Virus record (IMG/VR): IMGVR_UViG_3300037961_005073
Coordinates: 1-33,154 of that record
Source of the DNA: a virus
Strand: one strand, 5' to 3'
DNA length: 33,154 nucleotides
Below the pieces are notes generated by a model. The model was not told the DNA's origin. It did not search any database and worked only from the letters and a program-made list of their open reading frames with translations. Position 1 is the stretch's first letter. Every line of letters begins with the position of its first letter. Below, one piece after another: positions 5,613 through 26,025 of this stretch. The position numbers were made by a program, and so were the translations under genes.

Positions 5613-5620
5613 TATTTATA
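5613..5620 (-). promoter_or_regulatory. late promoter TATAAATA (33-aa micro-ORF)
   Basis: The minus strand has an exact match to the T4 late promoter box TATAAATA, recognised by gp55-type sigma factors. It is 22 bases upstream of the ATG at 5590, and a gp55 gene is present in this window. Confidence 0.75.
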
Positions 5621-6839: not shown

Positions 6840-7204
6840 TTCATTCCTCCAGTATCAAGTCGTTGTTTAATAAAGTTGATTTGTTCTTGTGTCAGGATTT
6901 TCAAAGCTTGAGATGCTTTTTCATTACTATAACCATAGTATTGTTTAATACATTCTAAGTCTGTGACCTTATCCTTACGGAGCCAGGGAGAAAATCTCTT
7001 CTTTTTCCTCAAACTATTTAGATAAAATGAATATTGCATATCTTTATCTAAGTGATGATACTTATTCATTTCATTTGCAAACATAATACAATCAAGATGC
7101 CCAGATAAACATCGATTGATAATATATGGTGGATAGTTTTTCGTGTGTTCTGAAAGATCTTCCTTATTAAAGTTGATCGAATTTAACCAGTCTTTGAGTT
7201 CCAT
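6836..7204 (-). CDS. 62: gp62 sliding-clamp loader small subunit
   Basis: One copy of gp62 joins four gp44 subunits to load the gp45 clamp. The 122-aa protein is clearly shorter than T4 gp62 (187), as usual in cyanophages. Characteristic stretches are YPPYIINRCLSGH near 24-36, FANEMN near 42-47, KKKRFSPWLRKDK near 66-78 and YYGYSNEKASQAL near 89-101. It starts in a TAATG overlap with the preceding gene and ends in an ATGA overlap with regA, the T4 order 44-62-regA with extra genes inserted between 44 and 62. Identification rests on these stretches and gene order. Confidence 0.88.
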   Translation of the reverse strand: MELKDWLNSINFNKEDLSEHTKNYPPYIINRCLSGHLDCIMFANEMNKYHHLDKDMQYSFYLNSLRKKKRFSPWLRKDKVTDLECIKQYYGYSNEKASQALKILTQEQINFIKQRLDTGGMK

Positions 7205-8319
7205 TATCTAATAATTTGAATATCATCATCTTCTGTCCAGAGTTCAACCTTGGTCCTGAACCTACCTTCTTGCTTGAGTTTCTCATATCGCTTGGTTGCT
7301 TTCTTCTTCCACCAAGCAATAATGTTCTCCAGATAGAACTTGTCCCAGTTAGGGCCACGAACCAACTCATCCTGCTCTTCCATAATCACCTCACGGACAT
7401 TTGAATATCCGTAATCAGAAATATAAAATCTCTTCTTCTGAGTAAGTCCAAATGCCATATTGATGACACCATTAAACTCTTTCAACTTGTCCTGATCCTG
7501 CAGAGAGTTCTTGATGATGGAAATCATCTTAGTCTGCCGTTTCATCTTCTTAGAGGACGCTCTGCTGTCCGTCAGAGGCGTATTGTTGTTCAATAGAGTA
7601 AATCGGTCATGGAGACGGTGAAAGACCTCCTCATGAAGCAGAGGAAGGAACTTGCTCTCCGTAAGACCTTTGTATCTCATAAAGGGTTTGAGACCGTCAT
7701 ACTGGGATGCAGACGTTGTAGATCCATAAAGAGAGGTAGTCTCAAACAAAGCAATATCTTTCTCAAAGACTTCATTCAAAGTCTCACGGGCAAAGTGAGA
7801 ACAGCACAAAAGTGCCAACAGTTTGCCACCAAGATAGTTGTATCCAAATGGTTGTGAAGGGACAATCACAAATCCCATCGCAGCATGACGATTGAATACA
7901 GAAAGATTAGGTGCCTTACCCAACCACAGATTTCTAGGCTTTGAATTAATTGTAGGAGAACCAAAGCGAATGAATCCAAGACACCGTTGAGTGTTCTTTT
8001 CAAAGATCATCCACCTAAGCTCTCTACCAGGGATATTACTTTCGTTGTTGTGAGAAGAAACTGCTCTCAACAAATTACCATAATGTTCTTGTGGTACTGA
8101 TTGCTGAAAGCGAGCACCAACAAACCTAATATCAAACTCCATCTCATTAGGATGAATATCTTCATTGAAGAACTCATCCTGGAGTGGAGTAAGTTGATTT
8201 GTCTGAGAGATGACTTCTTTTTTTACATAACGAAGGTAATCCTCAATGGAGGAAAAGTTCTTAAAATAATCAATAAATTCATTTGCTGCCCATACAGCAT
8301 CATCTTCAGATACTATCAT
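7204..8319 (-). CDS. possible DUF4338/DruA-like protein
   Basis: A 371-aa protein from the ATG at 8319; a longer frame to 8370 would add 17 residues overlapping the preceding gene. The middle has a distinctive series: a hydrophobic strand with LGFIRFGSP, an R-N-LWLG turn, an N-R-H-AAMGFVIVPSQPFG segment, GGKLLALL, then FETTSLYGS, SQYDG and the basic RYKGLT. The same order (G-x-I-x-F, R-x-x-x-I/LG, N-R-x-x-I-L-P, L-ETF-like, GT/GS-x-Y, G-x-T-x-G/S) is how I remember DUF4338, the family including DruA of the Druantia defence system. The C-terminal 130 residues are Lys/Arg-rich and may bind nucleic acid. It lies between clamp-loader genes. The homology is a remote guess; otherwise it is a conserved phage protein of unknown role. 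Confidence 0.6.
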   Translation of the reverse strand: MIVSEDDAVWAANEFIDYFKNFSSIEDYLRYVKKEVISQTNQLTPLQDEFFNEDIHPNEMEFDIRFVGARFQQSVPQEHYGNLLRAVSSHNNESNIPGRELRWMIFEKNTQRCLGFIRFGSPTINSKPRNLWLGKAPNLSVFNRHAAMGFVIVPSQPFGYNYLGGKLLALLCCSHFARETLNEVFEKDIALFETTSLYGSTTSASQYDGLKPFMRYKGLTESKFLPLLHEEVFHRLHDRFTLLNNNTPLTDSRASSKKMKRQTKMISIIKNSLQDQDKLKEFNGVINMAFGLTQKKRFYISDYGYSNVREVIMEEQDELVRGPNWDKFYLENIIAWWKKKATKRYEKLKQEGRFRTKVELWTEDDDIQIIR

Positions 8320-8515
8320 TAGAAAGATAATCAGGTCGGTTATAATCACTTTTATGGAGTAAAACTCCATCAACTTTATCTAGCAGATCTAGCACACTTC
8401 CATGCATTAGACGATATCCATATCCAACATATAGTTGTCCAAAGAATACTGTAAGTGCCATAAATGCCCAGAAGTAATAATATGTTCTGGATTTCTTTTG
8501 TCTTGGGTATTTCAT
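8306..8515 (-). CDS. small membrane protein of unknown function (69 aa)
   Basis: A 69-residue protein with a basic N-terminus (KYPRQKKSR), one hydrophobic helix at about residues 11-32 (YYYFWAFMALTVFFGQLYVGYG) and a hydrophilic C-terminal half. By the positive-inside rule the N-terminus should be cytoplasmic. The start overlaps the stop of the Sm-like gene upstream as ATGA; the next gene overlaps its end. No family is recognised. A single-helix membrane protein amid clamp-loader genes might tether replication to the membrane or act on the host envelope early, but nothing more can be said. Confidence 0.7.
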   Translation of the reverse strand: MKYPRQKKSRTYYYFWAFMALTVFFGQLYVGYGYRLMHGSVLDLLDKVDGVLLHKSDYNRPDYLSNDSI

Positions 8516-10935: not shown

Positions 10936-11144
10936 GATAATAGTTTACTGAAACTGATAGCTAGAAGAAATCCTAGCATAATGACAATATCCCAAGACTT
11001 TGTTTTAGCAAAATATGGGATTGAAATAGTGTCAGCAATGACATTCATTACGACACCAGCAATAACATTAACGTGCAAAACAACGAAGTAGGCAGCGATA
11101 ACTGTAATACTACCTACAATCCTCATTCTAGTGAGTGTTTTCAT
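10932..11144 (-). CDS. small two-helix membrane protein (70 aa)
   Basis: A 70-residue protein of which most is hydrophobic: helix 1 at about residues 9-36 (VGSITVIAAYFVVLHVNVIA and on) and helix 2 at about 52-68 (DIVIMLGFLLAISFSKL), joined by a short loop with YFAKTKSW. It overlaps gp45 and the next gene by ATGA at both ends, so it is coupled to clamp synthesis. No family is recognised. Membrane proteins in phage early operons can anchor replication complexes or alter the host membrane; no data here decide. Confidence 0.75.
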   Translation of the reverse strand: MKTLTRMRIVGSITVIAAYFVVLHVNVIAGVVMNVIADTISIPYFAKTKSWDIVIMLGFLLAISFSKLLS

Positions 11145-11809
11145 CCAACAAAGGTAGAATCGGGTTCTAGAGCAATGTAGTAAGTGAGATCATGATTCTT
11201 ACTAGTAAAGCGAGAAAGCAGTTTCTGAGATACTACAACTTCATATGTACCAGGTAGAACTTTGATGTTCTCTACCTTGAAGTTGAAAGAAAACTCAGCA
11301 TCAGTCTCACCAACAACAATTGCAAAGTCATTGGAAGTGTCGTTCTTCTTATCACGGACGACTAGTTTGACAACACCATTCTCACCAACAGCAGACAGAT
11401 CAGGCAATTGATAGACAGCAGATGCTTTCAGCAGTTTCTCTAGTTGATCAGTACTGAGCTGAAAGCAAACATCTTCACTAGGAAGTTCAATTGCTTTCTC
11501 AGGAGGGGTCACAATGACATTAGGATCTGAGAAGAAGTAGTTAGAACGCATTGCACCCTCACGGATAACAACATAACCACTATTAGTAAAATCAAGTTCA
11601 GGACTTTGATGAAGGCTCAAACCATTAAGAAATTGGTTCAAATCGTAAATACCAAAATCCCGAGAGAACTCTTCAGTAACAGTTGCTTCTGCAAGGATAT
11701 TCTTCATTACACTAATAGTGCGAAGTTTGCTACCCTCTTTGAACAGAATAGATTGATTGATGGAAGAGAAGTTCTTCAGGACAGAAATAGTTTTATCAGA
11801 AAGTTTCAT
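11141..11809 (-). CDS. 45: gp45 sliding clamp
   Basis: gp45 is the trimeric ring that holds gp43 on DNA and, in T4, also activates late transcription together with gp55 and gp33. The N-terminus from 11809 (MKLSDKTISVLKNFSSINQS) matches the T4 protein start, and later stretches agree: GIYDLNQFLNGLSL, ENIKVLPGTYEVVV near the end, and the closing YYIALEPDST (T4: YVVALEADST). Length is 222 against 228 in T4. An ATG at 11827, overlapping the previous stop as TGATG, would add six residues; I prefer 11809 by homology. gp55 is in the same operon, so clamp-dependent late transcription is likely conserved. Confidence 0.95.
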   Translation of the reverse strand: MKLSDKTISVLKNFSSINQSILFKEGSKLRTISVMKNILAEATVTEEFSRDFGIYDLNQFLNGLSLHQSPELDFTNSGYVVIREGAMRSNYFFSDPNVIVTPPEKAIELPSEDVCFQLSTDQLEKLLKASAVYQLPDLSAVGENGVVKLVVRDKKNDTSNDFAIVVGETDAEFSFNFKVENIKVLPGTYEVVVSQKLLSRFTSKNHDLTYYIALEPDSTFVG

Positions 11810-11826
11810 AGGGTTACGGATTTTCA

Positions 11827-12381
11827 TCACTGAGGGTAGGTTTCACGTTGTGCATTTTTGTCGTTGAAATGCATCAGAAGAACAGCATAGTGCAGAATCT
11901 TCATAATGTCACGACGTGCAGTGCCTTTCTTATCATAGCGAGAGGCATACTTGAGGATATTACTGCGGCAGAAAGATTCTCCATCACCACAAGCTTCAAT
12001 CAAATCAAGCGTTTGAATTTTATCATCACCAGCAGAGTAGTGCTGATTATATGTTGCAGAAATGTAATCTGTCAATTCTTTGAGAATGCGATCCTCACTA
12101 TACTTAAATCGATTACGGTCTTTGTCAGTAGTCATATTAGAGTTGAAAGTAATTGTATCCGATCCAGTGGGAATAGTAATCTTAAAATTTTGTGATATGG
12201 TATCTTGACCCGTAAGCGAATTGTCAATCAAACCAATTCCATCATCTTCCCAATATTCTTGATTAATTATTCCATTCACAGAATAACCATCAAGTTTTAT
12301 ATCTATCTTATCTTCCGAATAATGTGTGGAGTTTTTCGTCATGTTCAATTCATCAAATAATAAAGACCAGGAGTTAATCAT
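11827..12381 (-). CDS. DUF3310-containing protein
   Basis: A 184-aa protein whose C-terminal third (about 112-172) fits DUF3310: HY at 114-115, a DLIEACG helix, the N-x-x-KY-x-x-RYDKKG segment at 141-153, and a D-x-x-K-x-x-HY helix. DUF3310 occurs in many phages and is sometimes labelled a nucleotide kinase, though its biochemical role is not established to my knowledge. The N-terminal 110 residues are beta-rich and unrecognised. The ATG at 12381 is six bases after the CobS-like stop; an internal ATG at residue 14 is an alternative. Confidence 0.78.
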   Translation of the reverse strand: MINSWSLLFDELNMTKNSTHYSEDKIDIKLDGYSVNGIINQEYWEDDGIGLIDNSLTGQDTISQNFKITIPTGSDTITFNSNMTTDKDRNRFKYSEDRILKELTDYISATYNQHYSAGDDKIQTLDLIEACGDGESFCRSNILKYASRYDKKGTARRDIMKILHYAVLLMHFNDKNAQRETYPQ

Positions 12382-12387
12382 ATTCTA

Positions 12388-13572
12388 TCAAGAGAAGTTG
12401 TGATCGTCAAGACACTGCTTCTGTTGATCTTCGGAAGGCATCACGAAGTCAACATCAACCTTGTCATAGAGTTCAAGGAATGCCTGCTTAGTCTCATCAT
12501 CAAAACGATTCACACAAACCTGAATTGCTTTTGCCTTGTCTCCGAAGATGCTGTATGCCTTCACAATGTGGACCAGACGACGGGTGCTGATGATCTCCTC
12601 AATACCACCATCATAAAAAGTCTTGCGGATGATATCAGCCCAATCAGCAAGACGCTTACAGAAATCTGCATCATCACAGATCTTACCAAGAATCTTTTGT
12701 TCGGTTGCAGTTGTGGGGTACTCCTGCTCAAAGGTCACAGGGAATCGTTCAAGGAATGCTTCGTTGAGCACGTTAGTTCCAATGAACCGTCCGTCGTCGG
12801 AACCTTTACCTTTAGTATTTGCGGTTGCGAATACTTGGAAACCTTCTGCGGGCGCAACCCATTTGCCAATCTTCTTGAGGAAAACTCCCTTTCCTTCAAG
12901 AATAGATTGAAGACAGAGGATTTTGTTGCTTGCGAGGTCGATCTCGTCAAGGAGCAGCACAGCACCCCGTTGCAGGGCTTCAATGACGGGTCCGTTGTGC
13001 CAAACGGTTTCTCCACCAACAAGACGGAAACCGCCAATAAGATCATCTTCATCAGTCTCTACAGTGATGTTGACTCGGATGAGTTCCCGACCGAGTTGGG
13101 CGCACGCTTGCTCAACAGAGAACGTTTTACCATTGCCCGAAAGACCCGTGATGAACGTAGGGTAAAATAGACGGGATTGAATAATTTTCTTAATATCACC
13201 AAAGTTGCCAAACTTGACGAAGGAATCATCTTTTTGAGGAATAAGGTTTTGTTCGATTGCAGGCAGTGCTGCAGGTCCATTATAAGTCGTTTCCAGTTCT
13301 TCCACAGTCTCCTTTGTTACTTCCAGATTCCACTTACCGCGACCAACTTTGAAGTCAGTCAGTTTGTTGGTGATAGTCTGATAGTTAAGATCATTCATGT
13401 TGCAGAAAGCCTTGATCTCAGCGGAAGTCACAGACTCACCGTAAGAATCGCGGAGACATTCGATGATGCTTTCTTTGGAGAGACCCATTGGTTGGTTTGT
13501 TTGAACTGAAGTTATTATAGAACAGAATGGGGCAGAGTCAGGGACAGAGTATTCACTTCTCGGATTGTCCAT
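12388..13572 (-). CDS. cobS: CobS-like (MoxR-type) AAA+ ATPase
   Basis: Cyanophages carry this gene under the name cobS, after a subunit of cobaltochelatase. The AAA+ core has Walker A GLSGNGKT at 143-150, Walker B LLLDEID at 206-212, sensor 1 N252 and an arginine-rich sensor 2 region (ISTRRLVHIV). The N-terminal 100 residues hold an all-helical domain. MoxR/CobS ATPases work with VWA-domain partners to remodel other proteins, and a VWA gene lies directly upstream here. No CobN subunit is in the window. The ATG at 13572 overlaps the upstream 48-aa ORF by 20 bases. An internal ATG at 13488 (MGLSKESII, 366 aa) is plausible and has a TATAAT hexamer at 13514-13519 in front. Confidence 0.92.
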   Translation of the reverse strand: MDNPRSEYSVPDSAPFCSIITSVQTNQPMGLSKESIIECLRDSYGESVTSAEIKAFCNMNDLNYQTITNKLTDFKVGRGKWNLEVTKETVEELETTYNGPAALPAIEQNLIPQKDDSFVKFGNFGDIKKIIQSRLFYPTFITGLSGNGKTFSVEQACAQLGRELIRVNITVETDEDDLIGGFRLVGGETVWHNGPVIEALQRGAVLLLDEIDLASNKILCLQSILEGKGVFLKKIGKWVAPAEGFQVFATANTKGKGSDDGRFIGTNVLNEAFLERFPVTFEQEYPTTATEQKILGKICDDADFCKRLADWADIIRKTFYDGGIEEIISTRRLVHIVKAYSIFGDKAKAIQVCVNRFDDETKQAFLELYDKVDVDFVMPSEDQQKQCLDDHNFS

Positions 13573-13699
13573 ACTTGTATCGCATGGCTTGAAGTAAATA
13601 TGCCTGACCTAAAGACCTAGGACCCTCCTGAAGGATTTTAATTACCTTAGGGTCCTTTTCCGATGCGATGGCAATTTCTTTCCAGTTTTCTTTTGTCAT
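13553..13699 (-). CDS. 48-aa ORF between the VWA and CobS-like genes
   Basis: A 48-residue ORF starting MTKENWKEIAIASEKDPKV and ending MRYKYGQSEK, predicted to be one or two amphipathic helices. Its ATG is joined to the stop of the VWA gene as ATGA and its end overlaps the CobS-like start by 20 bases, so it sits as a coupled bridge between the two partner genes. It has no recognisable domain. It could be an adaptor of the AAA+/VWA pair. Without it there would be over 120 untranslated bases, unusual for this genome. Confidence 0.6.
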   Translation of the reverse strand: MTKENWKEIAIASEKDPKVIKILQEGPRSLGQAYLLQAMRYKYGQSEK

Positions 13700-15846
13700 G
13701 CCACTAGAGAGATAAATTCGCCAAGAACTTTCTTATTTAGTTTCTTAGTTTTCAAACTCTTGACAAATGCAGATTTAATTTTTGCCTTTGTTGCACCATC
13801 ATCAACATCAAACTCAGCATCTTGAGCAAGTGCTGTCGAAGAAAGTCCAAAGTATGCATCATAACCAGATGACTTGATACAGAAAGTTTTCGATTTTTTC
13901 CAATCATTCTGAACCATATCCCTCTCTTTATAATGAGTGCAATGCATACGAATAAATGAGTTTGCATCGCGAGAAGAAATGACACGAATACCAATAAAGT
14001 TTACTTGAGGAAAATTATCCTTCAGATTATTCAAAAGAATATCAGTAAATTCGTGCCAAAGATATCCAACCCTATAAGTTGTTCCCAACTTACGGTCCCT
14101 AATAAATGTCGTGTCGGGGGGGAGACGGCGAACGCCAATGTAAGGCTCTTTATGAGGATTATCAGGTTTAATTTCAACATGGCGAGCAAGATGGTTTGCC
14201 TCACCATCAGTCAAAATAATACACTGAACTTTTTGAAGTTTATTTTCCTTTTGGAACTTAGGAAGAATTTGGTGAAGTGCTATCAGAGTCTCATTTAGCG
14301 GAGTTCCAGAAAGAGACAACTGATCAGCAATAGTATAACCAGTTCCCCAACTAGAAGAATAATATTTTGCAATTCGCCAAATATTAATCATCTGCTCTTC
14401 CAATTCTCGAACAGAAGTCTTACTGGTAAGGATGTTCATCAAGGTAAATTCATCACTGACCCTCAAAAGACCTTCTTTCTTTTCATAGTGAGGCCTAAGA
14501 TTTGCCGGTATGTACCGTTCTTTATCATAATCATAAGTAGAACGATTCCATTCACAAGTAAAAGCATATACATCAAATGGAATATTTGATTTTTTACAAA
14601 ACCAAATCAAATTATAAAGTTGCTTGACAGTATCCAAAAGAACATTAGACATTGAACCTGACCAGTCAAGAATAAACACAAGACCATGATTCTTTCCATC
14701 AGGAATCACAGAAACTTTTTTGAACAAGTCTTCATTGTACTTATAAGTATGCAGTTTAGAAGTATCCAGAACACCTGTACGGGCAGTAGTGGCACGGGCA
14801 TAAGAGTCTGCTGCTTTCTTACACTCAAACTCCTTAACCAGATAATTGACCTCTTTCTGAGCAGAACGTTTGAACTTCACAAACTCTTGATCTGCTGTCT
14901 GAAAAATATTATGCTCAAATCTTTCTTCTTGATATTTAAAGTTCTTAGTAATGGCACGATGAACATCACTATTCTTGGCTATTACTGTTTCAAGATTAAG
15001 TTTAGGAAGTTCAAGATAAGTATTATCAATACCAATCATAGAAGCAAGTTCCTTGAGTTTTTCTTCAAGTTTAGATACGGTACTAACTTCTGGTTCATCA
15101 TCAGAAGAGCCAGTATCGCTGGGTTGTTCTTTTGATTGCTTGGGTTCAGATTGAGATTGTTCAGATTGCTCACCACCACCTTCAGAAGTTTGAGATTCTA
15201 CCTGGGGTTGTTGTTGCTGAGCATCAGATCCACCACCTTGCTGTTGAGCAGGCATCTCAATATCATCAACCTTTTCTTCCTTTTCTTTCTTACAGAACTT
15301 GTAAAGTTCTTCTGCAGCAACCGCAACATCACCAAAAGTCTCACACTCAGAAATCATGTCAATAATTTCCTGCTCTTCCTCAGTAAATTGAATATCAATA
15401 TAGTTTCCAATCTTGAACCAAAGATTTGCACGATCGGCAAGATTCATTTTAGAAACATCTTCTCCTTCCAAAGAGAAAAAATCTTCTTCAGCAAGTTCTT
15501 TATACCCACCATAGAAAGACTTTGCAAGTCCCATATACTTGCGCTTCATTAGTTTTTCAATACGTGCATCCTCAACAATGTTGATGTAGGTGTGAGGAAC
15601 GCTCTTTGGAGGATCTTCATTGGGAGTGAACAACGCATGTCCAACCTCATGGCCAACCAACATGTCATACACAACATTACTTGCCTCATCCCATTGAGGC
15701 AAAGTCAGAACGCGAGTTTGAACATTAAATTGAGCAGTTTCAACACAACGATGCTCAACAACCAAATCCTCAGTAGCAAGCAATTTGGCAAGTTGGGATT
15801 TGATTTCTTGTTTGACTGCCATGTGGTTTGTTTCGTATGTGGCCAT
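13696..15846 (-). CDS. HEXXH metallopeptidase-like protein with C-terminal VWA domain (CobT-like)
   Basis: A 716-aa protein with three parts. Residues 1-180 contain HEVGH at 66-70 and, downstream, NIVEDAR at 89-95, arranged like the HEXXH-plus-Glu zinc site of gluzincin peptidases. Residues about 190-255 are a low-complexity Gln/Ser/Glu-rich linker. The rest holds a von Willebrand A domain with the metal site DWSGS (D394, S396, S398), a later T, and D-G-E in ILTDGEAN. CobT and MoxR-associated VWA proteins share this C-terminal arrangement and are clients or adaptors of the AAA+ partner, here the CobS-like ATPase. Protease activity is inferred from the motif. An internal ATG at 15822 is possible. 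Confidence 0.88.
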   Translation of the reverse strand: MATYETNHMAVKQEIKSQLAKLLATEDLVVEHRCVETAQFNVQTRVLTLPQWDEASNVVYDMLVGHEVGHALFTPNEDPPKSVPHTYINIVEDARIEKLMKRKYMGLAKSFYGGYKELAEEDFFSLEGEDVSKMNLADRANLWFKIGNYIDIQFTEEEQEIIDMISECETFGDVAVAAEELYKFCKKEKEEKVDDIEMPAQQQGGGSDAQQQQPQVESQTSEGGGEQSEQSQSEPKQSKEQPSDTGSSDDEPEVSTVSKLEEKLKELASMIGIDNTYLELPKLNLETVIAKNSDVHRAITKNFKYQEERFEHNIFQTADQEFVKFKRSAQKEVNYLVKEFECKKAADSYARATTARTGVLDTSKLHTYKYNEDLFKKVSVIPDGKNHGLVFILDWSGSMSNVLLDTVKQLYNLIWFCKKSNIPFDVYAFTCEWNRSTYDYDKERYIPANLRPHYEKKEGLLRVSDEFTLMNILTSKTSVRELEEQMINIWRIAKYYSSSWGTGYTIADQLSLSGTPLNETLIALHQILPKFQKENKLQKVQCIILTDGEANHLARHVEIKPDNPHKEPYIGVRRLPPDTTFIRDRKLGTTYRVGYLWHEFTDILLNNLKDNFPQVNFIGIRVISSRDANSFIRMHCTHYKERDMVQNDWKKSKTFCIKSSGYDAYFGLSSTALAQDAEFDVDDGATKAKIKSAFVKSLKTKKLNKKVLGEFISLVA

Positions 15847-15991
15847 AATACGACGAAAGGTCGCCCTGAGGACGACCCATGTGACGCTTTTTGAACTGAC
15901 GGAGTGCTTCTCGCCGTGCTCGCATTGCTTGTGGTTTTAGTTTTCGTTTTTTTTCTTTCTTAGAATGGTGCTTCCAATTTGGGACTTGCAT
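15770..15991 (-). CDS. 73-aa strongly basic ORF overlapping the VWA gene
   Basis: A 73-residue ORF from the ATG at 15991, 14 bases after the gp46 stop. The first half is extremely rich in Lys, Arg and His (NWKHHSKKEKKRKLKPQAMR and ALRQFKKRHMGRP), like ribosomal or nucleic-acid-binding proteins. The last 25 codons overlap the start of the VWA gene in another frame. A gap of about 160 bases would otherwise remain after gp46. No family is recognised and no clear ribosome site is seen, so it may be shorter or not expressed. Confidence 0.5.
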   Translation of the reverse strand: MQVPNWKHHSKKEKKRKLKPQAMRARREALRQFKKRHMGRPQGDLSSYYGHIRNKPHGSQTRNQIPTCQIACY

Positions 15992-16005: not shown

Positions 16006-17718
16006 TCAAGCCACCATATGGGAAAATCCTTTTACTTTCTCAAATTTTATGACACTATCGAATCTGTCATCCATACCAGTTTTGTGGGATATAACAAAAA
16101 TATTAGCATCTTTAACAACATACTTGATAATTTTAAGAAACTCTTCTGTTCCCAATCCATCAAGTGAACTATCAAAGACCTCATCCATAATGAGTAGATT
16201 TGTATTGACAGAGTTCTTCATTCTTGCTACCTCTCTCCAAGTAAACAAGAGTGCTAGATCAATCCTCATCTTTTCTCCTTCACTGAAAGAAGAGTATGAA
16301 AAATTATCATGAATAGGGGACTGGACGGTTTCGTTGAATTCCTCATCAAGTGTGAAGTTAATGTAAAAGTCCATCATTTGAAGATAACGATTGACTTGCT
16401 GATTTATCAGCGGTAGATACTTCTTAATGATTTTGGATTTGACTCCACCGTCTTTAAGCAGACTATACGAAAAATCGTAGTAGTTAATTGTGTCCTTACG
16501 TTGAGCGAGTTCGTCGTATGTAGTTTTTAGGTTTTCGTTAAAAGAAGCTAACTTTTCATGTTCAATATTTCTATTTGCAAGTTGTTCGGTAGTTCTTTGA
16601 ATTTCCGATTCCAAATCTCTGATTTGTCGTTGACATCCAGAGATCTGAGTATTGTTCTTAGAAATGCCATGAGTTAAAGAAGTAATCTCCTTACTTAAGG
16701 ATAAAAATTGACGCTCTCGCTCTTCCTCCTTATTAATTGCCTCCTCCAGTTCTTTATAACCAGATTGCAACTCCTTTGCTTTATTTTGAGCGTCGTTAAT
16801 TTTATTTATCCTAAAGTCTTCTTCAATAGACTGTGTGCAGGTGGGGCAGACCGTATTCTCTGTGAAAAATTTATGTTCCTTAGTAATAGTTGATACTTTG
16901 TTAGAAATCTTACCCTTGAGATTACCAAGTGTGCGAAGTTTTTCAGTGGCACCAGTATATGAATTCAATACTTTATTAAAATCGTCAATCTCTTCTACAA
17001 TTTTAATATTCTCATGCATCAGATCATTCTCTTCATTTAGAAGATCTTGAATCTTGGTTTCTTTTTGTTTGATATTTTCCTTTCCACGACTTTCAAGCTC
17101 ATCCATAAAGTTCTCTTGCATTTGAACTTTATCAATCAAAGATTCTTTCTTAAGAGTCAGAACTTTAATCTCATCTTTTATGGAACGAATCTTTTCTTTC
17201 ATCAAACTATTCATTGAAGAGAAGATACGAATATCAAGAAGATCTTCAATAACATCACGACGATTAGCAGCAGACAATTGCATAAAAGGAACAAATGTGC
17301 TGCTACCCAGAATCACAATCTGAGTAAAGGACTTATAGTTCATCTTCAGAACATTTTGCTCAAACCATTTTTGCTGGTCAATAGCAGAAGCTGATTGATC
17401 TAAAGAAGATTCATTTCTCCAAATTTGAAATACTGTAGGTTTAATTCCTCTGACAATTTTCCACTTAATTTTTCCTATGGAAAATTCAACTTCAACAACA
17501 CAATCTTTTTCATTTACACTATTGATAAGTTGTGGTTTATTAATCTTACGAAAAGGTTTCCCAAAAAGAGCAAACGTGAGGGCATCAAGAACTGTACTTT
17601 TACCAGCACCATTTGAACCTACAATCAGATTGGTTTTATTTTCAACAAAATTAATTTCAGTAAATTGATTTCCAGTAGAAAGAAAATTTTTCCAACGAAC
17701 TTTTTCAAATAAAATCAT
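16006..17718 (-). CDS. 46: gp46 recombination endonuclease subunit (Rad50/SbcC-like)
   Basis: gp46 is the SMC-type ATPase that, with the gp47 nuclease, resects DNA ends for recombination-dependent replication. Walker A GSNGAGKS is at about 36-43 counted from the upstream in-frame codon, the zinc hook CPTC near 293-296 between two coiled-coil arms, the ABC signature SFSEGEK near the C-terminus, and Walker B LLIMDEVFDSSLDG beyond it. The 570-aa length is close to T4 gp46 (560). The ATG at 17718 is chosen over a TTG two codons earlier. It overlaps the end of the preceding DUF3110-like gene by 14 bases. Confidence 0.96.
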   Translation of the reverse strand: MILFEKVRWKNFLSTGNQFTEINFVENKTNLIVGSNGAGKSTVLDALTFALFGKPFRKINKPQLINSVNEKDCVVEVEFSIGKIKWKIVRGIKPTVFQIWRNESSLDQSASAIDQQKWFEQNVLKMNYKSFTQIVILGSSTFVPFMQLSAANRRDVIEDLLDIRIFSSMNSLMKEKIRSIKDEIKVLTLKKESLIDKVQMQENFMDELESRGKENIKQKETKIQDLLNEENDLMHENIKIVEEIDDFNKVLNSYTGATEKLRTLGNLKGKISNKVSTITKEHKFFTENTVCPTCTQSIEEDFRINKINDAQNKAKELQSGYKELEEAINKEEERERQFLSLSKEITSLTHGISKNNTQISGCQRQIRDLESEIQRTTEQLANRNIEHEKLASFNENLKTTYDELAQRKDTINYYDFSYSLLKDGGVKSKIIKKYLPLINQQVNRYLQMMDFYINFTLDEEFNETVQSPIHDNFSYSSFSEGEKMRIDLALLFTWREVARMKNSVNTNLLIMDEVFDSSLDGLGTEEFLKIIKYVVKDANIFVISHKTGMDDRFDSVIKFEKVKGFSHMVA

Positions 17719-17977
17719 GTTCAATTTCAGGTGGAATTACAATGTCATTTTTTGTGATTATGGTATACAAATACCCATGAAGTTCACAAGCTTTTATCAT
17801 AATATCATCATCAATCTCAAGAATATGCATATCGTCACATCCAGATTCTTCTAGCATCATGGCATATCTTGTTGCATCATCTTCTTCTTCAAACAAATAA
17901 AGAATTTGTTCACCCTCACTATTAGATACTGAATATGCACCGTCAGTCTCTTTACCGTCTAAAGTAAGAATAAACAT
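17705..17977 (-). CDS. DUF3110-like protein between gp47 and gp46
   Basis: A 90-aa acidic protein. Its layout, a short N-terminal strand MFILTLDGKETDGAYSV, the segment YLFEEEDDATRYAMMLEE, and a later stretch with I-x-x-C-x-x-x-GY followed by P, resembles DUF3110, a small domain common in cyanobacteria (pattern FE-x-EEDA-x-RYA-x-LLE). No catalytic residues are evident. The gene separates the two subunits of the 46/47 nuclease and overlaps gp46 by 14 bases. If the match is right it may be of host origin and modulate the nuclease, but both are inferences. Confidence 0.7.
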   Translation of the reverse strand: MFILTLDGKETDGAYSVSNSEGEQILYLFEEEDDATRYAMMLEESGCDDMHILEIDDDIMIKACELHGYLYTIITKNDIVIPPEIEHDFI

Positions 17978-24828: not shown

Positions 24829-25980
24829 TTATTTGCTAAATTTTGAAAGCGTATTCAGATAGTGTGCCATTGATCCAGAAATATCTGCACCAGTGTCTAC
24901 ACCCTCGGAAAGAGTTTCGGACTTAGCAGATGAAGCTGCTGATTTGGTAGAGAAATACGATTCTCTCAGCATCTCCAGTTTTTCACGATATTTTTCTTCA
25001 CTTTCAAACTCAACACTTTCAGCAAGTGAAGCAAGCTTATCTTTCTGGGTGGACGCAAGTCCTTCAGAAACTTGATCAAAGATTCCTTCCGCAACCGACT
25101 CTGCGAGTCTGGAGTTTAGGGAAACGTTTTTCTCGATCTGCTCGTTGAGTTTTGTCTCCATTTCATCAAGTTTTTCTACCATGCTCTCAAGCACATCATA
25201 TTTGTCTTCAGGGATTGTTACATAATGTTCTTCAAAAAGACCCTTCATTCCAGAAAGGAATGATTCGGTCATTTCAGTTTTAAGACCTGCTTCAACAGCA
25301 AGTTGGTTTTCAGTAAACCACTCTTCAGAAACGTATTCGAGATATGCATCAACACGCTCACCTAGAGCAGTCTTGATTTCTTCTACCTCTTCTACGAGTT
25401 TCTCTTCGTAGTTTGCTTTGATTTCTTCCTTGATAGCAGAAACCTTAGAAGCAATTGCTGCTTCGAAGATAGTTTTTGCTTTTTCTTGGAATTCTTCGGA
25501 GAGTTCCTCTCCTTGAAGAAGTGCATTTACATCTTCTTCAAGATCTAGTTCGGTGTATTCGGGAGCTTCTGCTACTACTTCTTCTTCAGCAGTTTCTTCT
25601 TCAGAAACCACTTCTTCTTCGGTAGTTTCTGCTTCAGCAACTACTTCCTCTTCGGTAGCTTCGTCTTCTGCAATTACTTCTTCGTCAGAAAGATCTTCTT
25701 CTTCCTTTACGCCTTTCATTGCATCAGCTTTACCTGCACCCTTATTAACTACATCACTTACTTGCTTAAGTGAACCGCCTGGAGTGCTCAGCTTTGCTGA
25801 ATCATCATCGGGCTTGTAGTTGTCTGGAGTAGGACCACCAAGATCCTCAACGCTTGCTAACTGGGTGCCAGGATCTGCCAGTTTTGGCATAGGATCACCA
25901 GCTTTTGCTCCAGCATTAACAGCGGTGCGGGATTGCTTTGTGCCTGCTTCCATTTCGTGTAAATCGTTACCACTAGACAT
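24829..25980 (-). CDS. 22: gp22 prohead scaffold (core) protein
   Basis: gp22 forms the inner scaffold of the prohead and is degraded by gp21 during maturation. The 383-aa protein is longer than T4 gp22 (269) and very acidic. It starts with a polar, Pro/Gly-rich part (1-90), then a Glu-rich tandem repeat (100-143), then long helices with coiled-coil character (about 145-345), and ends in a Ser-rich tail. Identification rests on position between gp21 and gp23 and on composition; the helices with L-x-x-x-E heptads fit. A late box TATAAATA and a GGAG ribosome site precede the ATG. Confidence 0.92.
   Translation of the reverse strand: MSSGNDLHEMEAGTKQSRTAVNAGAKAGDPMPKLADPGTQLASVEDLGGPTPDNYKPDDDSAKLSTPGGSLKQVSDVVNKGAGKADAMKGVKEEEDLSDEEVIAEDEATEEEVVAEAETTEEEVVSEEETAEEEVVAEAPEYTELDLEEDVNALLQGEELSEEFQEKAKTIFEAAIASKVSAIKEEIKANYEEKLVEEVEEIKTALGERVDAYLEYVSEEWFTENQLAVEAGLKTEMTESFLSGMKGLFEEHYVTIPEDKYDVLESMVEKLDEMETKLNEQIEKNVSLNSRLAESVAEGIFDQVSEGLASTQKDKLASLAESVEFESEEKYREKLEMLRESYFSTKSAASSAKSETLSEGVDTGADISGSMAHYLNTLSKFSK
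25552..25683 (-). repeat. 33-base in-frame tandem repeat in gp22 (4 copies)
   Basis: Residues 100-143 of gp22 consist of four 11-residue units of the form EEVVAEAETTE (copies: EEVIAEDEATE, EEVVAEAETTE, EEVVSEEETAE, EEVVAEAPEYT). The DNA period is 33 bases. Such repeats expand and contract easily, which may explain the length excess over T4 gp22. Confidence 0.85.
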
Positions 25981-26017: not shown

Positions 26018-26025
26018 TATTTATA
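26018..26025 (-). promoter_or_regulatory. late promoter TATAAATA (gp22)
   Basis: Exact TATAAATA on the minus strand, 37 bases above the gp22 ATG in the short gp21-gp22 gap. It would drive gp22 and gp23. Confidence 0.75.

Follow-up and report, generated by a model that had tools for sequence, protein, structure and literature searches.

We analysed a stretch of viral DNA of 33,154 nucleotides (positions 1 to 33,154 of the IMG/VR record IMGVR_UViG_3300037961_005073; hereafter, the window) that contains a cassette of four open reading frames (ORFs), in which a protein with a predicted zincin (HEXXH metallopeptidase)-like domain and a VWA domain is encoded next to a CobS/MoxR-type AAA+ ATPase. 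All four ORFs, which an earlier reading of the sequence (the original prediction) had described together with their places and overlaps, were confirmed on the minus strand, in the order 73, 716, 48 and 394 amino acids (aa). The 73-aa ORF begins with the ATG at 15991, its stop codon ends at 15770, and it overlaps the 716-aa ORF by 77 bp; the junction between the 716-aa and 48-aa ORFs is a true ATGA overlap, and the 48-aa and 394-aa ORFs overlap by 20 bp. An internal methionine of the 716-aa protein, Met9 (15822), is the start in many homologues. Each of the four ORFs matched a phage protein family (Table 1).

Table 1. Features of the cassette and of its surroundings in the window.
Feature	Position	Strand	Evidence and remarks
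716-aa zincin-VWA protein	13696..15846	-	phrog_459 'peptidase', E=3.1e-264; T4-GC 146 in cyanophages; CobT for some authors
N-terminal zincin-like domain, residues ~10-195	15262..15819	-	AlphaFold2 fold and weak PDB matches
HEXXH motif HEVGH, residues 66-70 (H66, E67, H70)	15637..15651	-	Invariant; within predicted helix 57-73
Downstream motif NIVEDARIE, residues 89-97	15556..15582	-	N89, E92, D93 and R95 invariant; predicted helix 85-103
Gln/Ser/Glu-rich linker, residues 196-248, between the zincin and VWA halves	15103..15261	-	Low confidence, pLDDT < 50
VWA MIDAS motif DWSGS, residues 394-398	14653..14667	-	T515 and D547 also invariant
394-aa CobS/MoxR-type AAA+ ATPase	12388..13572	-	phrog_249 'porphyrin biosynthesis', E=3.8e-137; T4-GC 150
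Walker A GLSGNGKT, ATPase residues 143-150	13123..13146	-	Sequence; aligned to CobS/NorQ/midasin P-loops
Walker B VLLLDE, ATPase residues 205-210	12943..12960	-	Sequence and alignment
48-aa companion	13553..13699	-	phrog_869; optional
73-aa basic companion	15770..15991	-	phrog_3309 covers residues 1-36; 3' part overlaps start of zincin-VWA gene; optional
gp46-type (SbcC-like) recombination nuclease subunit, upstream neighbour	16006..17724	-	phrog_77, E=1.6e-189
gp45-type sliding clamp, downstream neighbour	11141..11830	-	phrog_223, E=3.5e-89
Scaffold gene	24829-25980		T4-type late promoter TATAAATA just upstream, 26018-26025

The two halves of the 716-aa protein are both under strong constraint. 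Residues H66, E67, H70, N89, E92, D93 and R95 were invariant in 126 aligned relatives, as was the full set of the metal ion-dependent adhesion site (MIDAS; D394, S396, S398, T515 and D547). In a 52-sequence alignment with identity down to 26%, 32 of the 716 residues were invariant, and the zincin-site and MIDAS residues were among these. In a count made without filtering for HEXXH, the motif was found in 121 sequences and was missing from three, all of them contig-edge fragments that lack the N-terminus, and it was thus present in every complete relative (121/121). As judged from the alignments, the conservation of HEXXH and of the downstream motif is not a matter of chance; the original prediction had made its case depend on conserved His and Glu residues in homologues, and these residues do not vary among the 126 relatives. 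AlphaFold2 modelled the full protein with a predicted local distance difference test (pLDDT) score of 79.9, and the isolated residues 10–198 with a mean pLDDT of 93.0 and a predicted template modelling score (pTM) of 0.88. In the predicted model, H66, E67 and H70 share one helix, which follows a set of strands, and E92 and D93 lie on the next helix; either E92 or D93 is a candidate for the third metal ligand. The best PDB matches of this N-domain in Foldseek were ArdC, selecase, abylysin and an M61 peptidase, all weak (E of at least 0.16), and BlaR1, PprI, ZMPSTE24 and Wss1, individually weak, appeared further down; we take all of these proteins to be HEXXH metalloproteases. A sequence search of solved structures with a profile of the zincin domain returned nothing meaningful. 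In the structure search, the VWA half matched the NorD VWA of NorQD complexes, among other VWA domains, and the VWA_CoxE model had no match in the virus's own record. The invariant residues, the confidently predicted fold and the zincin-dominated, although weak, matches together support the proposed fusion of a zinc-peptidase-type domain to a VWA adaptor. As to the structural resemblance to peptidases on which that proposal relied, the best matches were zincins, but all of them were weak.

The 394-aa ATPase matched PF07728 (AAA_5; E=5.6e-17), its Walker A and B motifs are intact, and its solved relatives are CobS, NorQ, CbbQ and midasin. Residues ~28–110, ahead of the AAA+ core, form an N-terminal extension for which no Pfam family exceeded its cut-off and which may bind clients or DNA; the ATPase might also start at another codon (Met29). 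Together with the NorD-like VWA half, these matches bear out the assignment of the two proteins to the MoxR-VWA type. The pair resembles NorQ-NorD, CbbQ-CbbO and RavA-ViaA in combining a MoxR-type ATPase with a VWA partner, with matches to NorQ and CbbQ for the ATPase and to NorD for the VWA half, but differs from them in the conserved, fused zincin domain of the phage protein. The NorD, CbbO and ViaA partners are not known to have a zincin domain.

Searches with tblastn found the 716-aa protein in 463 phage records, nearly all of T4-like cyanophages, and the ATPase in 660, some of which are distant matches from staphylococcal and vibrio phages, among others. Matches to the zincin-VWA query in genome collections mostly looked like phage contigs in metagenome bins and were therefore treated as relatives rather than as genes of bacteria; the Ochrobactrum-phage protein as query yielded no further viral relatives. 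On viral contigs, the ATPase gene lay within 3 kb downstream of the zincin-VWA gene at 96 of 105 testable loci. The ATPase and the zincin-VWA protein are the core of the cassette and belong to the conserved core of T4-like cyanophages. ORFs of the 48-aa type were present at 25 of 103 testable loci and those of the 73-aa type at 38 of 99; where the 48-aa ORF occurred, its start lay no more than 10 nt from the stop codon of the peptidase gene in 22 of the 25 cases, which suggests translational coupling. Both tiny ORFs are real but optional. The original prediction was therefore supported as regards the pair but not as regards the small genes as integral parts, since these are often absent. At two loci in mycobacterial and staphylococcal phages (L085:1657-3799 and L086:4737-6712), a DUF7192 protein (PF23822) replaces the zincin-VWA protein beside a CobS-like AAA+ ATPase.

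The cyanophage pair was named CobST by Liu et al. 2021 (PMC8651126), who called its 'peptidase' label a mistake. According to that study and to many surveys of auxiliary metabolic genes, phage CobST would act with host CobN as an auxiliary cobalt chelatase and boost cobalamin or pseudocobalamin. The architecture is similar, in that CobS-CobT also pairs an AAA_5 ATPase with a neighbouring protein that has a CobT-like N-domain and a VWA domain, and the proteins are homologous: cyanophage proteins matched CobT-like proteins of mobile elements with 99.4% probability in profile-profile comparison, and the latter matched CobT with 100%, although the E-values come from single pairwise comparisons. 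A direct comparison between the cyanophage and CobT profiles was weak (25% probability, VWA part only), so that the link to CobT runs through the mobile-element intermediates. The hosts would also suit such a role, since CobN exceeded the cut-off in 31 of 41 Cyanobiaceae and CobT in none of the 41. However, the window proteins do not fit the chelatase models: the ATPase scored 62.6 bits with TIGR01650 (CobS), whose cut-off is 558.55, TIGR01651 (CobT) had no match among the window proteins, and PF06213 (CobT) reached 9.9 bits against a cut-off of 26.1. In an AAA+ tree with long branches, whose deeper order is unsure and which we regard as tentative, true CobS proteins formed one clade (100/99) that excluded the window ATPase, and the latter grouped with ATPases of a pelagiphage and an Ochrobactrum phage (97/96).

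The protease site also separates the two groups. HEXXH, at residues ~61–105, is retained in 15 of the 18 CobT-like proteins that were drawn from phages, from plasmids and from a Pseudovibrio element, and (I/V/L)ED....E follows it in most of the 15; the Moellerella plasmid protein is N-terminally incomplete as annotated. By contrast, 25 chromosomal CobT proteins of alphaproteobacteria have the domain without HEXXH, with HDxxxH further on in most, and read VEQARVE at the position of the VED..IE motif. The lone regular-expression match in this CobT set, HEPAH, came from an N-terminally extended frame (L178) and was not placed in the domain, and in the profile alignment HEVAH stands opposite SMALR of true CobT. 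The replacement of HEXXH in phages BUCTxx99 and Nican01 (see below) resembles its loss in true CobT. We conclude that Liu et al. are right on the homology to CobT and, as far as sequence comparison can tell, probably wrong on the protease site.

CobN was absent from the 68.5-kb record of the source virus and from eight other phage records searched whole (0/9), which extends the original prediction's remark that no CobN was visible. No CobN was found in an E. coli control, yet related pairs are present on two kinds of E. coli element, the phage-plasmid Cyrano and IncC plasmids; borrowing of host CobN is therefore not the general function, although it may occur in cyanophages, whose hosts do have CobN. 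Among 58 sampled genomes of alphaproteobacteria, some of them incomplete, CobT was present in 41 and any CobN match in 22, and 20 of the 41 CobT-bearing genomes, some of 3–4 Mb, had no CobN match. Caulobacter vibrioides, used as a control, likewise had CobT and no CobN match. Even cellular CobST thus need not mean chelatase, and the chromosomal proteins may have a CobN-independent role. Small alphaproteobacterial genomes were considered as SAR11 hosts for the CobN test and set aside, because their GC contents of 39–51% are not evidently those of SAR11. These surveys and the absence of HEXXH from true CobT uphold the view that a CobS label does not imply cobalamin. The pair is probably not a cobalt chelatase, true CobT being probably a relative without HEXXH, and we consider an auxiliary chelatase very unlikely.

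We also compared DUF2201 (PF13203) proteins of Chloroflexota loci, which combine HEXXH with a VWA-like domain beside a MoxR-like AAA ATPase and align in register at HEXXH and the downstream motif. Their pairwise profile match was weak (~7–26% probability), and their ATPases fall on a distant branch; PF13203 and PF09967 had no match among the window proteins. DUF2201 was rejected as the closest cellular cousin, given the weak match and because no protein of 120 Pseudomonadota genomes passed the cut-off.

The genes of the source virus lie on the minus strand in a T4-like order, in which terminase, tail sheath, portal and scaffold genes precede those for a UvsW-like helicase, a gp55-type sigma factor, gp47 (assigned by position and length only), gp46 and the cassette; a DUF3310 protein, the gp45 clamp, the gp44 clamp loader and DNA polymerase follow. 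A 389-aa ORF (7204-8373), situated between the genes for the clamp loader and DNA polymerase, matched phrog_19197 (function unknown; E=3.3e-162). Related pairs adjoin DNA replication or recombination genes in four separate settings. In cyanophages, a pelagiphage and the Ochrobactrum phage, the pair stands between gp46/47 and gp45/44. The second setting, with DNA polymerase III alpha and a primase, helicase or ligase, was found in Cyrano, RHEph10, BUCTxx99, Nican01, V1VFA-S and an Acinetobacter plasmid, and the third, with DNA polymerase and primase/helicase, in the Zobellviridae (ICP2 and T5S1). The fourth comprises RecT/Bet, an exonuclease, DUF3150 and mostly ssb on MOBH plasmids and the Pseudovibrio element. 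The neighbourhood was less clear in Gordonia phages and CRP-810.

On the MOBH plasmids (L089, L208, L209 and L210, IncC included) and the Pseudovibrio element (L188), the genes form a recurring operon whose order varies by plasmid group and which holds a MoxR-type ATPase, RecT/Bet, an exonuclease, DUF3150, a VWA protein and usually ssb. The VWA proteins of IncC, Vibrio and Pseudovibrio keep HEAAH/HEAGH and ED.RIE, and the ATPase is CobS-like, as in the cyanophages; they differ in the presence of DUF3150 and recombination genes inside the operon and in low sequence identity. In a Citrobacter plasmid (L209:7410-10575), the gene is interrupted by an IS911-type element that lies between its zincin and VWA halves.

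Iyer et al. 2021 (PMC7824862) described, in jumbo phages of group 2.2, an adjacent pair of a MoxR AAA+ ATPase and a metallopeptidase-vWA protein and proposed a role in virion assembly, in which the MoxR-vWA pair would help head or tail assembly and the metallopeptidase would trim structural proteins. Going by the published description of its proteins (ASV44729 and ASV44728), that pair has the same architecture, a MoxR-type ATPase beside a vWA protein with an N-terminal metallopeptidase. The same paper cites an archaeal-virus MoxR-vWA pair needed for tail assembly, and the core genes of cyanophages include hsp20 and others that help assembly. A virion maturation chaperone-protease is nevertheless distinctly unlikely here. 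Whereas the published role is in virion assembly, the evidence for our pair points to a DNA module: it lies in the replication module and not in the structural module, and related pairs occur on conjugative plasmids, which make no virions. Moreover, the T4-type late promoter TATAAATA, which precedes the scaffold gene in the window, was found in the ~600 bp upstream at 2 of 120 loci, with ~3 expected from its overall frequency, and between the two genes at 1 of 90 loci, so that neither the zincin-VWA gene nor the ATPase gene showed upstream enrichment of late promoters. Three further copies of TATAAATA lie in the window, at 5613, 6301 and 27179. The location in the replication module and the lack of late-promoter enrichment argue, only indirectly, for action early in infection.

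A second alternative is a counter-defence or host-takeover protease that would destroy nucleoid or defence proteins of the host, in the way that ArdC-type plasmid zincins act against restriction. The antirestriction protein ArdC of plasmid R388 is among the weak top PDB matches, phages and conjugative plasmids alike carry the pair, and its plasmid neighbours RecT, exonuclease and ssb handle incoming DNA. Yet the pair is nearly universal in cyanophages and varies slowly for a gene in an arms race, and a search for defence families gave no match for the window proteins; we regard this role as rather unlikely.

The best explanation, to which we give about an even chance, is that the pair is a zincin-VWA/MoxR-type AAA+ machine that remodels or cuts proteins, probably on DNA. 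The architecture, the conservation, the predicted fold, the gene neighbourhood and the absence of HEXXH from true CobT and of CobN from the phage records were observed; from these we infer zinc binding, proteolysis, an AAA+/VWA complex and DNA-associated clients. In this model, the VWA half would use its MIDAS metal site to dock on the ATPase ring, much like NorD on NorQ. The AAA+ motor would then pull on or unfold a client, which the tethered HEXXH domain, with zinc bound, would cut. Since the pair is embedded in a replication/recombination module, the likely clients would be proteins on DNA, either from the host (nucleoid or defence proteins) or from the phage (replication/recombination complexes in need of remodelling).

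Several points weigh against this explanation. No PDB match of the N-domain reached E < 0.001 in Foldseek, and a Pfam scan of the zincin domain gave no family, only single-member matches at chance level. The ICP2 homologue has V at the position of E92 and D at 93, which bears on the choice between the two candidate third ligands. HEXXH is lost in BUCTxx99 (REVST; L091:4992-6977) and Nican01 (SEISK; L205:3974-6055), so that in some phages the pair works without the motif. The neighbourhoods are a plain tally of settings, in which the synteny of the Kyanoviridae counts once, and neighbourhood alone is weak evidence in phage genomes, of which replication genes make up a large part. The limits of the AAA+ tree and of the profile-profile comparisons given above count on the same side.

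The pair and its architecture have already been published in outline, the architecture for jumbo phages (PMC7824862) and the pair as part of the cyanophage core (PMC8651126), and the original prediction overstated their novelty. What is new here is a means of deciding between the two published readings, in that the protease site is kept in mobile elements and absent from true CobT and that CobN is missing where the pair occurs, and also that the recombination-operon setting recurs. A broader proposal, which we hold to be doubtful, is that zincin-VWA/AAA+ pairs serve phages and conjugative plasmids generally as a machine for unfolding and cutting DNA-bound proteins during replication or recombination, a prokaryotic functional counterpart of the AAA+-assisted proteases of DNA-protein crosslinks, with CobST as a derived branch that lost the protease site. 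If that were true, the cyanophage 'cobS' of ocean surveys would be unrelated to B12. These surveys count phage cobS, which belongs to the core gene set of T4-like cyanophages, as an auxiliary metabolic gene for B12, and the label is probably wrong. The finding bears also on the unexplained operons of IncC resistance plasmids and on the CobST genes of bacteria that have no CobN.

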